Of a stretch of DNA of 48,308 nucleotides, positions 31,239 through 36,633 are shown one piece after another. The DNA is from Chloroflexota bacterium. Its GTDB lineage: Bacteria > Chloroflexota > Dehalococcoidia > Lucifugimonadales > Lucifugimonadaceae. The notes beneath the pieces are model-generated. The model worked only from the letters and a program-made list of their open reading frames with translations, was not told the DNA's origin and searched no databases. Each line of letters begins with the position of its first letter. Within the stretch, counting starts at the first letter, position 1. Where the stretch lies: the NCBI GenBank assembly GCA_027623655.1, contig JAQBVG010000006.1:1-48308 (forward strand), given 5' to 3'. A program made the translations under genes and the position numbers.

Positions 31239-31658
31239 ATGGTCATTGCAAAGACCGTTGTAGAGTTCACCGATGCAGCGACGACAAAGTTGCTTGCAGT
31301 TCTAAAAGAACAGGATGCGGAAGGTCAGTACCTTCGTATCGCCGTGACTACAGGCGCCCACGGTGGGATTGAGTACGTATTTGGCCTCGAAGAAACCCCG
31401 TCGGAAGACGACAGGATCATCGAGGGTACAGTCAAAGCGCTGGTCGATGATGAAAGTGCCCCAATGCTCGAAGGATCACGCATCGACTACGTTGAAGGCT
31501 TTGAGCGCTCAGGGTTCGTCATTTCAAATCCGAATTTTTCATCTGGCTGCGCATGCGGCGGTGGGGGTTGCGGCGGCGGTGGCGGCGGTTGTGGTGGTGG
31601 CGGTGGCGGTGGCTGCGGTTGTGGTGGTGGCGGTGGCGGTGGCTGCGGCGGGCACTAA
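31239..31658 (+). CDS. A-type Fe-S carrier (HesB/IscA-like) with Gly/Cys tail
   Basis: Residues 1-106 follow the HesB/IscA fold: the start VVEFTDAATTKLLAVLKEQ, LRIAVTTGAHGG, ALVDDESAPMLEGSRIDYVE and SGFVISNPN before the paired cysteines C104 and C106. In IscA proteins three cysteines bind the cluster; here the first (in GGCSG) is replaced by His41 in GAHGG. After C106 an extra tail of 33 residues is only Gly and Cys apart from a final His139, with cysteines at 111, 118, 126, 128 and 136. The tail codons include a 30-bp tandem duplication. An Fe-S or metal carrier or storage function is inferred. A ferredoxin gene follows 183 bp later. Confidence 0.88.
   Translation: MVIAKTVVEFTDAATTKLLAVLKEQDAEGQYLRIAVTTGAHGGIEYVFGLEETPSEDDRIIEGTVKALVDDESAPMLEGSRIDYVEGFERSGFVISNPNFSSGCACGGGGCGGGGGGCGGGGGGGCGCGGGGGGGCGGH
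31590..31649 (+). repeat. 30-bp tandem duplication in the Gly/Cys tail
   Basis: Two adjacent 30-bp copies (31590-31619 and 31620-31649) differ at one base (GGT/GGC) and each encodes Cys, seven Gly, Cys, Gly. Copy number is in register with codons, so the tail can grow or shrink by ten residues with two cysteines at a time. Confidence 0.9.
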
Positions 31659-33593: not shown

Positions 33594-35384
33594 CTAAACT
33601 GCGCACTCACCTTCACCGCGTTCCAGCTTGTAGACCACCGTTTTGCCCCAGTCCATGTACGTCTGGATGTGGTCTCGATCAAGCGGACCGACCTCGTCCT
33701 TCAACTTTTTGAACTCGGTTTCAAACTGCTCCACTCCAACCCGTTCGATGTACTGGCTGAATTCTTCGCCTTCATTACGGTTGGTGGTGTAGTTATCCAG
33801 CACTGTCTTCAAGGCTGCCGGAGCAAGTTTCGCGGGGATTCGTGCCTTGACCCGCTCACCGATCTTTGTGCCTCCGGCTTCTGTCGAACGCCCGCCGAGG
33901 AACAGTTCATATGCCGGGACCTGACCGCTGGGGCCCTTCATTACTGCACCGTGGAATCCAATGCTGGCAATGTGGTGCTGCCCGCAGGAGTTCGGGCAAC
34001 CGCTCGCCTTAATGTGCATTTTCTCAACCAGCGGGTCGATATCCTGCATCTGATCAATTGCCTCACCGAGGGCCTTGTTGAGGCCCATCGACGAAGTTAT
34101 TCCAAGTTTGCAGGAGTCAGTTCCGGGGCAGGTGACGATATCTCGAATGGTCTCGCGACCGGCAACACTGAACCCTATGTCGCCCAGCGCCAGGTAGGTG
34201 TCGTAGATCGACTCTGTCCGGACCCAGCGGAACACAATATTCTGCTGCTGGTCTATCCGGGCCCGCCCCCCGCCGAACTTCCTGGCGATAGTGGCGAGTT
34301 GGGACCACTGGTTTGCGTACACATCGCCACGTTCAATACGAACGTAGACCATGTTGAATCCTGTCTGCCTCTGCTCGACAACGTTTGTTCGTTTCCAGTT
34401 GTCATATGCAGCATCATTTGTAGGCTCCGGGGTTGCACCGGTTGGAACCGCAGGAGCGTCGGCAAGTTCGTCTTCGATAAACATTAGAGAATCGAGATCG
34501 ATCTCTTTTTTCGCCCAGTCGCCCTGCAACTCTTCATCGACCATTTCACGGAATTTCTCGATTCCAAGCCGCTCAATCGTGAATTTGATGCGGGCTTTCA
34601 TGATGCTCTTACGCTCTTCGTCCTGTCGGTTGAAAATACGGAGCACCGCTTCGCAATGTTTGATGAAATCTTCGGCGGGTACAAACTCGGATAAAGTCTT
34701 CGCCATTAACGGGTTGGTCGATAGCCCGCCACCGACAACAATTTTGAACCCACGTTTTCCGTCACGTACACGAGCGACAAGTCCGACGTCGTGCATCAGG
34801 ACCATCGCTTCGTCTTTTTCCGAACCGCTAAACGCTACCTTCGACTTACGTGGCATGTTCTGTGTGGTTGGATGACGCAGGAAGTAGCGTGCGTAGGCTG
34901 CGGAATAAGGGGTCACATCGAAGACTTCGTCTGGGGATACACCAGCCGACGGATGTGCGACTACGTTGCGTACTACGTTGCCACAGGCCTCACGCGTCGA
35001 CATTCCGGCGTCGCCAAGCATTCGAAGAAGCTCGGCGGTTTCAGCAAGGGGAACGTGGTGTAACTGAACGTTCTCCCTGGTTGTGAAGTGCCCTTTTTTT
35101 AGCGGTGTGTACTTTTCGACCACGTCGCCCAGCACATCCATCTGAACTGCAGTCAGGCCGCCAAATGGCAGCTTAATCCGGATCATCTGGCGATCGGGTT
35201 GCCGTTGCCCGTACACACCCTGCCGGAGCCGGAAGCGTAAAAATTCTATCTCGCCCTTTTCACCGGCCTGGAACAGCTTTACCTGATCCTCGAAGTCTGC
35301 GATTTCAGGACCGTCGATCTTTAGAACGCGAGCGTTTGCCGGGTTTGGAACCCAGTTCGTCGCACTAGCACTTCCTGTGGTCAC
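33594..35384 (-). CDS. Siroheme sulfite/nitrite reductase (probably assimilatory sulfite reductase)
   Basis: The 596-residue enzyme has the two-fold repeat of the NIR/SIR family: a first ferredoxin-like half (FRLRQGVYGQRQPDRQMIRI, then FTTRENVQLHHV), the siroheme-binding block, and the second half. The four cysteines for the coupled [4Fe-4S]-siroheme centre are in CPGTDSC and CPNSC. There is no flavin domain, so the donor is likely ferredoxin. The GTG start has GAGG about 9 bases before it. Sulfite and nitrite reductases of this family are hard to tell apart by eye; the cysteine-codon leader upstream argues for sulfite reduction in cysteine synthesis. No other sulfur genes adjoin. Confidence 0.92.
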   Translation of the reverse strand: MTTGSASATNWVPNPANARVLKIDGPEIADFEDQVKLFQAGEKGEIEFLRFRLRQGVYGQRQPDRQMIRIKLPFGGLTAVQMDVLGDVVEKYTPLKKGHFTTRENVQLHHVPLAETAELLRMLGDAGMSTREACGNVVRNVVAHPSAGVSPDEVFDVTPYSAAYARYFLRHPTTQNMPRKSKVAFSGSEKDEAMVLMHDVGLVARVRDGKRGFKIVVGGGLSTNPLMAKTLSEFVPAEDFIKHCEAVLRIFNRQDEERKSIMKARIKFTIERLGIEKFREMVDEELQGDWAKKEIDLDSLMFIEDELADAPAVPTGATPEPTNDAAYDNWKRTNVVEQRQTGFNMVYVRIERGDVYANQWSQLATIARKFGGGRARIDQQQNIVFRWVRTESIYDTYLALGDIGFSVAGRETIRDIVTCPGTDSCKLGITSSMGLNKALGEAIDQMQDIDPLVEKMHIKASGCPNSCGQHHIASIGFHGAVMKGPSGQVPAYELFLGGRSTEAGGTKIGERVKARIPAKLAPAALKTVLDNYTTNRNEGEEFSQYIERVGVEQFETEFKKLKDEVGPLDRDHIQTYMDWGKTVVYKLERGEGECAV

Positions 35385-35451: not shown

Positions 35452-35485
35452 AAAAAGACCCTGCCAGATCATTTGCGGGCAGGGT
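35452..35485 (-). terminator. Intrinsic terminator in the reductase leader (segments 3:4)
   Basis: On the minus strand ACCCTGCC (35485-35478) pairs perfectly with GGCAGGGT (35465-35458), followed by C and TTTTTATTA. It faces the reductase gene from its own leader, 67 bp before the start codon, and there is no minus-strand gene upstream that it could serve. It therefore must act inside the leader as an attenuator. Confidence 0.85.
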
Positions 35486-35531
35486 TAAAACATACGAGCA
35501 CCAACACCCAGCCCACTTCAGTAGCGTGGAC
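35477..35531 (-). promoter_or_regulatory. Alternative leader pairings: 1:2 and antiterminator 2:3
   Basis: Segment 1 is GTCCAC (35531-35526, over the second Cys codon), segment 2 is GTGGGCTGGGT (35516-35506), and segment 3 is ACCCTGCCC (35485-35477). Segment 1 pairs with GTGGGC of segment 2 (6 pairs, one G-U), and GGGCTGGGT of segment 2 pairs with segment 3 (8 of 9). The 2:3 pairing uses the 5' arm of the terminator and so excludes it. The 1:2, 2:3, 3:4 order is that of the trp attenuator. Confidence 0.65.
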
Positions 35532-35565
35532 AGGAGCAGTCGTTTGCTGAATATATGAAGACCAT
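35518..35565 (-). CDS. Leader peptide with Cys-Ser-Cys (sensor ORF of the reductase attenuator)
   Basis: A 15-codon ORF, MVFIYSANDCSCPRY, ends in TGA. Two of fifteen codons are Cys (codons 10 and 12), far above the usual share of about one percent. The stop codon lies in the loop of the 1:2 hairpin, and the antiterminator strand begins 4 bases after it, so a ribosome at the stop would cover segment 2, while a ribosome stalled at the Cys codons would cover segment 1 and leave segment 2 free. There is no Shine-Dalgarno; the predicted transcription start is at or within about two bases of the ATG, so translation would be leaderless. Confidence 0.6.
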   Translation of the reverse strand: MVFIYSANDCSCPRY

Positions 35566-35573
35566 TGCCGGAT

Positions 35574-35582
35574 ATTTTAGCA
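35574..35582 (-). promoter_or_regulatory. Extended -10 promoter of the reductase leader
   Basis: On the minus strand TGCTAAAAT combines a TG motif with TAAAAT (35574-35579). Eight bases separate it from the ATG of the leader ORF, so transcription would begin right at the ORF. No strong -35 is seen, as usual for extended -10 promoters. The serine tRNA promoter in this window (TGCTATAGT) has the same form. Confidence 0.55.
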
Positions 35583-35721: not shown

Positions 35722-36633
35722 TTGGCAGCGAATAGAAATCTCGACGGTATTCACTTTATGCTGCCGACCCCGTTCGATTCGAACGGTGAGGTCGATACTT
35801 CTTCGTTTGCCCGTTTGGTCAACTGTGCACGAAATGCCGGTTGCACCGGCGTGGTGACCCTCGGTGTGATGGGTGAAGCACACCGGCTGACTGACACTGA
35901 GCGAGGACCGATCATCGACGCTGTGGTTGCAGCATGTGGAGACGATTTGACCGTGACCGTCGGAGTCAGCGCGGAAAGTGGACGGGCGCTCGGCTCCCGG
36001 GTCAAAGAAGCTCAGACGGCCGGAGCTACAGCCGTCATGGCCGCACCCGCCAAAATGGCAAAGCCGAATTCGGCTTCAACGTTCGCCTACTATGCCTCCG
36101 CACAGGAAGTAACCCGGATTCCGATCGTGGTCCAGGACTTGCCCGAGCAGACAGGGGTGCACCTCGATCCTGCATTTATCGGGAAGTTGCACAAAGAACT
36201 CCCCGATGCCAGATATCTGAAACTGGAAGATCCGCCAACACCGCAAAAAATATCGCGCGTAATTGAAGCTACTGGCGGCACCATGGGTATTTTTGGTGGA
36301 CTTGGAGGAGCATTCCTTTTCGAAGAACTTCGCAGAGGTGCGGTCGGCACAATGACGGGCTTCGCCTATCCTGAAGTGCTGGTCGCTATTCATAAATATC
36401 TGGGCGGCGGCGACATCGAAAAGGCCCGAGGGATTTTTTATTCGTGGTTACCACTGATCCGGTATGAGAACTCGGCGGGCATAGGTCTCGCCATCCGGAA
36501 GGAAATCATGAAGCGCAGAGGTCTGGTAGAAACCGCCGACGTCAGACCGCCAAGCCCCTCCATTGACGACCTCACCAGAGCCGAACTGGACGACCTGATG
36601 CACGCGCTCGATCTCAACGTCTCAAATCTGTAA
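35722..36633 (+). CDS. DapA-superfamily aldolase/lyase paralogue (not DapA itself)
   Basis: A 303-residue TIM-barrel protein of the dihydrodipicolinate synthase superfamily. The Schiff-base lysine is kept (K167 in RYLKLED), so pyruvate or an oxo-acid chemistry is likely. The TTGE motif of true DapA reads VMGE (49-52), the catalytic Tyr of YNVP is replaced (QDLP, 138-141), and the arginine that binds the substrate carboxylate is Gln143. A true dapA with all residues lies at 3553-4455. Possible roles are other oxo-acid aldolase or dehydratase reactions. The TTG start has AGGAG 9 bases before it. It is divergent from the sulfite reductase leader and ends 105 bp before the zinc-ribbon gene. Confidence 0.88.
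   Translation: MAANRNLDGIHFMLPTPFDSNGEVDTSSFARLVNCARNAGCTGVVTLGVMGEAHRLTDTERGPIIDAVVAACGDDLTVTVGVSAESGRALGSRVKEAQTAGATAVMAAPAKMAKPNSASTFAYYASAQEVTRIPIVVQDLPEQTGVHLDPAFIGKLHKELPDARYLKLEDPPTPQKISRVIEATGGTMGIFGGLGGAFLFEELRRGAVGTMTGFAYPEVLVAIHKYLGGGDIEKARGIFYSWLPLIRYENSAGIGLAIRKEIMKRRGLVETADVRPPSPSIDDLTRAELDDLMHALDLNVSNL

Follow-up and report, generated by a model that had tools for sequence, protein, structure and literature searches.

The region preceding a ferredoxin-type sulfite/nitrite reductase gene in a Chloroflexota genome is interpreted here as a ribosome-mediated transcription attenuator in which charged tRNA-Cys serves as the measure of cysteine, a reading to which a probability of about 0.9 is assigned and which rests on sequence comparison, no RNA or reporter data being at hand. 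Three sequence characteristics of a trp-type attenuator (codons for the end product in a uORF, an intrinsic terminator and competing 1:2 and 2:3 pairings) are present. The gene and its leader lie on the minus strand of the window, which is the whole stretch of 48,308 nt that was analysed and forms part of a genome of 2.77 Mb (G000). Among named records the nearest (15 loci) come from metagenome genomes labelled SAR202, Dehalococcoidia or Chloroflexi and from the cultured Candidatus Lucifugimonas marina JH1073 (CP046147.1).

The reductase leader and its surroundings

The leader as a whole occupies positions 35582–35449 of the minus strand, and the predicted parts are listed below with the gene and with the basis of each assignment in brackets.

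35582–35574, minus strand: extended −10 promoter element TGCTAAAAT (sequence; TANNNT placement across leaders)
35565–35518, minus strand: near-leaderless uORF of 15 codons, ATG to TGA, putative leader peptide MVFIYSANDCSCPRY (sequence and genus comparison)
35538–35530, minus strand: Cys-Ser-Cys codons 10–12 (TGC TCC TGT), proposed stalling site (genus codon table)
35531–35526, minus strand: segment 1, GTCCAC, partner of segment 2 (fold and aggregate 1:2 swap test)
35516–35506, minus strand: segment 2, GTGGGCTGGGT, antiterminator 5' arm, immediately past the uORF stop (aggregate 2:3 swap test and folds)
35485–35477, minus strand: segment 3, ACCCTGCCC, common to antiterminator and terminator (swap test and folds)
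35465–35458, minus strand: segment 4, GGCAGGGT, terminator 3' arm (fold and swap test)
35457–35449, minus strand: T tract of the intrinsic terminator, CTTTTTATT (sequence)
35400–35394, minus strand: AAAGAGG, Shine-Dalgarno-like site of the reductase, some 50 nt beyond the T tract (sequence)
33594–35384, minus strand: regulated gene, ferredoxin-type sulfite/nitrite reductase (NirA-like), GTG start at 35384 (NCBIfam and nearest structures)

All the elements claimed in a preliminary description of this DNA (the −10 element, the ORF, segments 1–4 and the T tract) were found at their places on the minus strand. The gap between the −10 element and the ATG of the uORF is 8 nt, and the encoded peptide ends in DCSCPRY before the stop. 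Within segment 2, the stretch GTGGGC at 35516–35511 is the one that pairs with segment 1, and GGGCTGGGT at 35514–35506 begins 4 bases past the uORF stop; its pairing with segment 3 in 8 of 9 positions, as claimed earlier, was borne out. Any of the 1:2, 2:3 or 3:4 hairpins is possible in this leader. The predicted fold energy of the window leader alone is unremarkable (z = −1.75, with 11 of 200 shuffled sequences equally stable), and the case for an attenuator is built on comparison, not on that energy. When both strands of the 48 kb window were scanned for a Cys ORF followed by a terminator, the reductase leader was the sole match, and the same scan of 400 kb of the relative G001 (20 pieces of 20 kb) returned 10 places, a −10 element being present in one only, the G001 reductase leader.

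On the far side of the leader lies a dapA-like gene (35722–36633, a match below cut-off) that reads away from it. Since this gene diverges, it has no need of a terminator here, in agreement with the earlier remark that the terminator has no upstream gene to serve. The reductase itself matches the NCBIfam models for NirA and for ferredoxin-nitrite reductase, both below cut-off, and its nearest solved chains are nitrite reductases, followed by Mycobacterium tuberculosis NirA (1zj8), an enzyme that reduces sulfite. That sulfite rather than nitrite is the substrate is an inference, made although the nearest solved chains are nitrite reductases; should the cysteine attenuator be real, sulfite would be favoured as the substrate of this NirA-like enzyme.

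Conservation and coordinated change in the order

The reductase was present in all 19 genomes of the genus (including a fragment in G016 and a broken copy in G013), in 45 of 76 genomes of the family and in 181 of 250 genomes of the order. Upstream regions were read for 123 of the 181 order genomes, 43 in the family and 80 beyond it, chosen for family coverage. A short ORF carrying two or more Cys codons close to its stop, which according to the preliminary description should recur in related genomes, was seen by eye in 18 of the 18 genus upstreams read, G016 offering no such region. An automatic rule (ORF of 7–26 codons with two or more Cys among the last 10, and a terminator 15–60 nt past the stop) was passed by 13 of these 18. 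Four of the failures (L010, L011, L014 and L016) keep the Cys ORF with no terminator that passes, and the fifth, L048, is located upstream of the broken reductase. In this genome (G013, contig C49; L018, L020, L021 and L048) the reductase is in pieces with in-frame stops; the Cys ORF of its leader persists and the terminator fails the rule.

Across the order the rule was met in 74 of 123 upstreams, in 19 of the 30 families sampled (tallied by hand), and 18 of 29 relocated family loci were positive. On the reverse strand, used as a control, 2 of the 123 upstreams passed, and 20 dinucleotide shuffles yielded a mean of 0.30 passes per 123 (maximum 2). With other residues put in place of Cys in the same rule, the next-best count was 25 of 123, for Thr. 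No automatic call was obtained in 49 of the 123 order upstreams, nor in 11 of the 30 sampled families, where a Cys ORF was still seen in f9 (L071) and f41 (L055). In the genus g2 (six upstreams, L025–L030) there is no reductase leader and the gene is preceded by a different sequence. Loss of the ORF from leaders that keep the terminator had been named beforehand as grounds for refutation; this situation was encountered in one genome, that of L032 (genus g3), in which the terminator and antiterminator arms are kept (by eye) with no adjoining Cys ORF. Outside the order, where 40 of the 121 class genomes matching the reductase at 1e-100 were sampled, the rule was met once (1/40; L156). The leader peptide of this locus, from genome G254, ends in LCSCTCWP before the stop. 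Judged from these upstream sequences, the reductase leader is mainly an order-level trait; the leaders share ancestry and the counts do not represent independent events.

The codons of the uORF were tabulated for 15 of the 18 genus leaders (L011, L014 and L016 were omitted). The fifth codon from the end, counting the stop as 1, encodes Cys in 15 of 15 (TGT in 14, TGC in one), and three consecutive Cys codons occur in 9 of 15. At the codon after the last conserved Cys, 14 of the 15 leaders have Thr, and all four ACN codons are in use. This synonymous variation at Thr beside a conserved Cys supports translation of the uORF.

A TANNNT element precedes the uORF start by 6–12 nt in 74 of 75 leaders, and by 8–10 nt in 57 (mode 9). 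A stricter form of the −10 element occurs in 50 leaders, compared with 6.2% at random places, while a Shine-Dalgarno-like 4-mer precedes the uORF in 5 of 74. Both the count and the spacing are favoured by the procedure, as starts lying about 8 nt from the −10 were preferred wherever several were possible. The arrangement points to a leaderless or near-leaderless uORF, with a transcription start inferred from sequence alone. Leaderless genes have been predicted in 4 of 12 Chloroflexi genomes (PMC3160421; this paper and those cited below were available only in part). A search of four genomes with the promoter pattern TGCTARAATN{4,13}ATG recovered the reductase leader in all four, plus two further places in G000.

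Coordinated change between segments was evaluated with a partner-swap test instead of a covariance model, because the leader sequences differ much between families. Each segment was paired with its own mate and with the mates of other leaders in a set of 75 (74 in the order plus L156) and 20,000 permutations; L035, which passed the scan but has its terminator oddly placed, 7 nt past the stop, was excluded from the tests on this set. The own-mate mean for the 2:3 pairing was −11.47 against −10.44 after permutation, and for the 1:2 pairing −16.28 against −13.99, values that none of the 20,000 permutations reached in either case. The 3:4 pairing gave −20.47 against −11.89 (0/20,000), which is no test since 3:4 was selected by the scan. 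No own-mate advantage was seen for the two control pairings, 1:3 (10,329/20,000) and segment 2 with the sequence past the terminator (16,924/20,000). The 2:3 advantage is modest, about 1 kcal/mol on average, with 10 of 75 leaders among the best 5% of swaps (median 0.42); for 1:2 the corresponding values are 10 of 75 and 0.26. The 2:3 pairing is weak in f33 (L102, L118, L121 and L125) and in part of f36 (L105, L107, L123, L126 and L127). The covariation expected between segments 2 and 3 is consequently present in aggregate, with null controls, but few leaders are significant on their own, and the swap result supports a shared 2:3 design for the set and not for every single leader. At the level of sequence, the parts of the leader, their conservation and their coordinated change can be regarded as established.

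Proposed switch and alternative explanations

In the proposed mechanism, transcription would begin either on the ATG of the uORF or a few bases ahead of it. When charged tRNA-Cys is scarce, the ribosome would stall at codons 10–12 and cover segment 1, so that the 2:3 hairpin could form once segment 3 has been made, no terminator would arise and the reductase gene would be transcribed. When cysteine is ample, the ribosome would arrive at the stop and cover segment 2, 3:4 would form and transcription would end at the T tract. Without a ribosome, 1:2 would form and leave the terminator free to form. The transcription start, translation of the uORF, stalling, termination and the response to cysteine are all inferred.

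Folding of the window leader with a ribosome in place, whose footprint was assumed to reach 13 nt past the first base of the A-site codon, is consistent with such a switch. With the ribosome on either Cys codon the full-length minimum (−24.0) is the antiterminator and the terminator is broken, while with the ribosome at the stop the terminator fold is obtained (−14.4), as the preliminary description had anticipated. Its trp-like 1:2, 2:3, 3:4 logic likewise gains support from this change of fold together with the swap tests. In the window leader, the probability of finding the terminator 5' arm already paired by the time arm 4 is made was 0.93 with the ribosome at the first Cys compared with 0.43 at the stop. 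Averaged over the 75 leaders, the same probability was 0.64 at the first Cys, 0.57 at the last Cys, 0.41 at the stop and 0.49 with no ribosome. It was higher at the first Cys than at the stop in 62 of 75 leaders; the difference was larger than 0.2 in 42, and a difference of this size in the opposite direction was seen in one leader. Among seven leaders examined in detail, some, for example L008, L062 and L120, have the terminator as their minimum-energy fold at every ribosome position, so that a switch there would be kinetic. Kinetic switching is usual for trp-type attenuators.

Three other explanations may be considered. Translational attenuation in the mycobacterial manner, with the ribosome on the uORF gating the ribosome-binding site of the reductase and the hairpin being incidental, is regarded as unlikely. 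The leaderless Cys ORFs of mycobacteria (Shell 2015, PMC4633059) are reported to act on translation (Canestrari 2020, as cited in PMC9031893 and PMC13236596), and no terminator was found behind the Cys ORFs before cysDN described below (10 of 10). However, the Shine-Dalgarno-like site of the reductase is situated about 50 nt beyond the T tract and outside all the segments; among the 123 order upstreams, 74 have a terminator behind the Cys ORF, and in aggregate the swap test shows segment 2 to be matched to the terminator arm. Less probable still is a riboswitch or T-box, in which the RNA would bind cysteine, another metabolite or a tRNA and the ORF would remain untranslated. Two alternative folds and a terminator would suit the expression platform of a riboswitch equally well, but a search of the window against Rfam detected, at gathering score, rRNA and two tRNAs only and no riboswitch, T-box or leader family, new aptamers beyond Rfam being outside its scope; moreover, the Cys codons of the ORF are kept with synonymous variation, and in the 57 of 74 leaders whose −10 element is 8–10 nt from the start codon an aptamer could hardly be accommodated before the ORF. 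Finally, an ordinary terminator combined with a chance ORF is ruled out by the order-wide recurrence of the leader, for although short ORFs containing two Cys close to the stop turn up fairly often when no terminator is demanded (mean 20.8 of 123 shuffled regions), their combination with a terminator (74 of 123 against a mean of 0.30 in shuffles) is not reproduced by chance, and the diverging neighbour has no use for a terminator there.

The preferred reading, a cysteine-sensing transcription attenuator, can be compared with several known systems. Classical trp-type attenuators are proteobacterial. With the trp type the reductase leader shares a leader peptide containing regulatory codons, the 1:2, 2:3 and 3:4 hairpins and a terminator before the structural gene; it would differ in sensing cysteine, in its near-leaderless uORF and in its occurrence in Chloroflexota. 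In actinobacteria, trp and ilv attenuators are known, as are cys leader peptides without obvious terminators (PMC1262725). The ilvBNC attenuators of Corynebacterium (PMC11857589, PMC10272879) likewise consist of a leader ORF, a terminator and an antiterminator, but they sense branched-chain amino acids, unlike the Cys leader. The polycysteine sORFs of mycobacteria, which are leaderless as the reductase uORF is predicted to be, resemble the reductase leader in their clustered Cys codons and in preceding cysteine-related genes, and they are cysteine-responsive; they are reported to act translationally and, in the part of PMC1262725 that was available, no conserved terminator hairpin is associated with them, whereas the reductase leader has a terminator.

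A further parallel is uORFC-8-2, predicted before cysS of Rhodobacterales (PMC8632094), in which a Cys-codon uORF is also followed by an intrinsic terminator, so that a terminator-coupled cysteine attenuator is in itself no novelty. It differs in that it regulates cysteinyl-tRNA synthetase and is confined to Rhodobacterales, while the reductase leader does not stand before cysS; furthermore, it has two tandem Cys, usually at codons 14–15, and no 2:3 antiterminator is described in the accessible text of PMC8632094.

No cysteine leader attenuator in Chloroflexota was found in the literature, just as the preliminary description knew of none, which is weak evidence given that open-licence papers alone were covered. 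Within the same literature, no paper was found that combines 'Chloroflexi', 'transcription attenuation' and 'leader peptide', and nothing was found on the control of sulfur assimilation in SAR202 among the matches listed. The cultivation paper on strain JH1073 (PMC10444878), in its available portion, contains no mention of sulfite, cysteine, methionine, 'assimilatory' or 'transcriptom'. If the attenuator is real, the leader would unite two traits known separately, leaderless uORFs and trp-type terminators, and, as far as the searches show, these would be the first leaderless ORFs tied to intrinsic terminators for cysteine. Much of an order would then gauge its cysteine supply by the speed of ribosomes on tiny leader ORFs, amino-acid attenuation would extend to a phylum where none was found described, and in RNA-seq of the cultured strain the amount of short leader relative to full transcript would report cysteine limitation.

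Cysteine-codon leaders at other sulfur genes

Besides the predicted near-leaderless nature of the ORF, comparison of upstream sequences adds a second point to the preliminary description, namely that the predicted design is not confined to the reductase gene. The cysH gene was found in five of six genomes searched, and that of the window genome (contig C108, L193/L209) has a putative leader of its own, with a −10 element TATACT, the ORF MNLRLNMVCNKARLCICTENHICGGS and a terminator. With a relaxed rule (two Cys within the final 16 codons), a leader with terminator was called at 19 of 30 loci located by tblastn, with one of 30 on the reverse strand. When 20 regions cut at approximate starts (L239–L258) were included, 33 of 50 regions were positive, again with one on the reverse strand; the 50 regions were drawn from 82 order genomes with a cysH match. 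No leader was called at cysH of G001 (L214). Five genomes of g2, the genus without a reductase leader, have a cysH leader call (L241, L242, L245, L246 and L248), and the 2:3 pairing in these is mostly weak.

The layout at cysH is different. When the stretch between 24 nt upstream and 18 nt downstream of the ORF end was searched, 26 of 31 leaders had their best antiterminator arm within the ORF, and 17 of 31 have an ORF that extends 8–9 codons beyond the last Cys. The own-mate pairing was reached in one of 20,000 permutations (n = 31), the two controls in 748 and 18,084; as the first of these is not wholly flat, the test is weaker than that for the reductase.

For cysDN, represented by a 310-aa cysD and a GTPase gene in L195, a match was obtained in 12 genus genomes. 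A Cys-rich ORF of 31–43 codons, with 6–10 Cys and ending in Cys, precedes 10 of 13 loci (L259, L261–L266, L268, L269 and L271), and no terminator was found behind any of these ten. L270 has no Cys-rich ORF, and L260 offers too little sequence. The region upstream of cysD in the window genome (L199/L267, contig C96) is apparently interrupted by a transposase-like gene, as judged by eye, and the Cys-rich ORF was not seen there. Among the 9 best of 30 cysKM loci there was no Cys leader with a terminator. ATP-sulfurylase PF01747 gave no match in six genomes, and the search for cysE gave sub-cut-off matches only.

At least three predicted layouts can be distinguished, with the antiterminator starting from the uORF stop (reductase), lying inside a longer uORF tail (cysH), or with an ORF of 31–43 codons and no visible terminator (cysDN). 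The reductase attenuator is probably part of a cysteine regulon in the order, through which SAR202 bacteria would probably switch on sulfate assimilation when cysteine is short. It is considered likely, with less assurance than is attached to the attenuator itself, that in the SAR202 bacteria of this order the individual genes of sulfate assimilation are each controlled by independent Cys-codon leaders of three or more layouts, instead of or besides a sulfur regulator protein, which as far as the searches show would be the first such regulon in Chloroflexota.

Elsewhere in the window, on the plus strand, positions 31239–31658 encode a Fe-S protein of the IscA/ErpA type (above the cut-off of TIGR00049) that bears an unusual tail, rich in Gly and Cys and about 35 residues long. 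The two additional places in G000 that matched the promoter pattern were rejected by eye as further targets of Cys leaders, L149 since no Cys ORF is visible and L148 since it resembles a leaderless enoyl-CoA-hydratase-like gene. At L148 (contig C82, near position 1500), TGCTAGAAT is seen by eye 6 nt before the ATG of the latter gene, an arrangement consistent with other leaderless genes in this genome.
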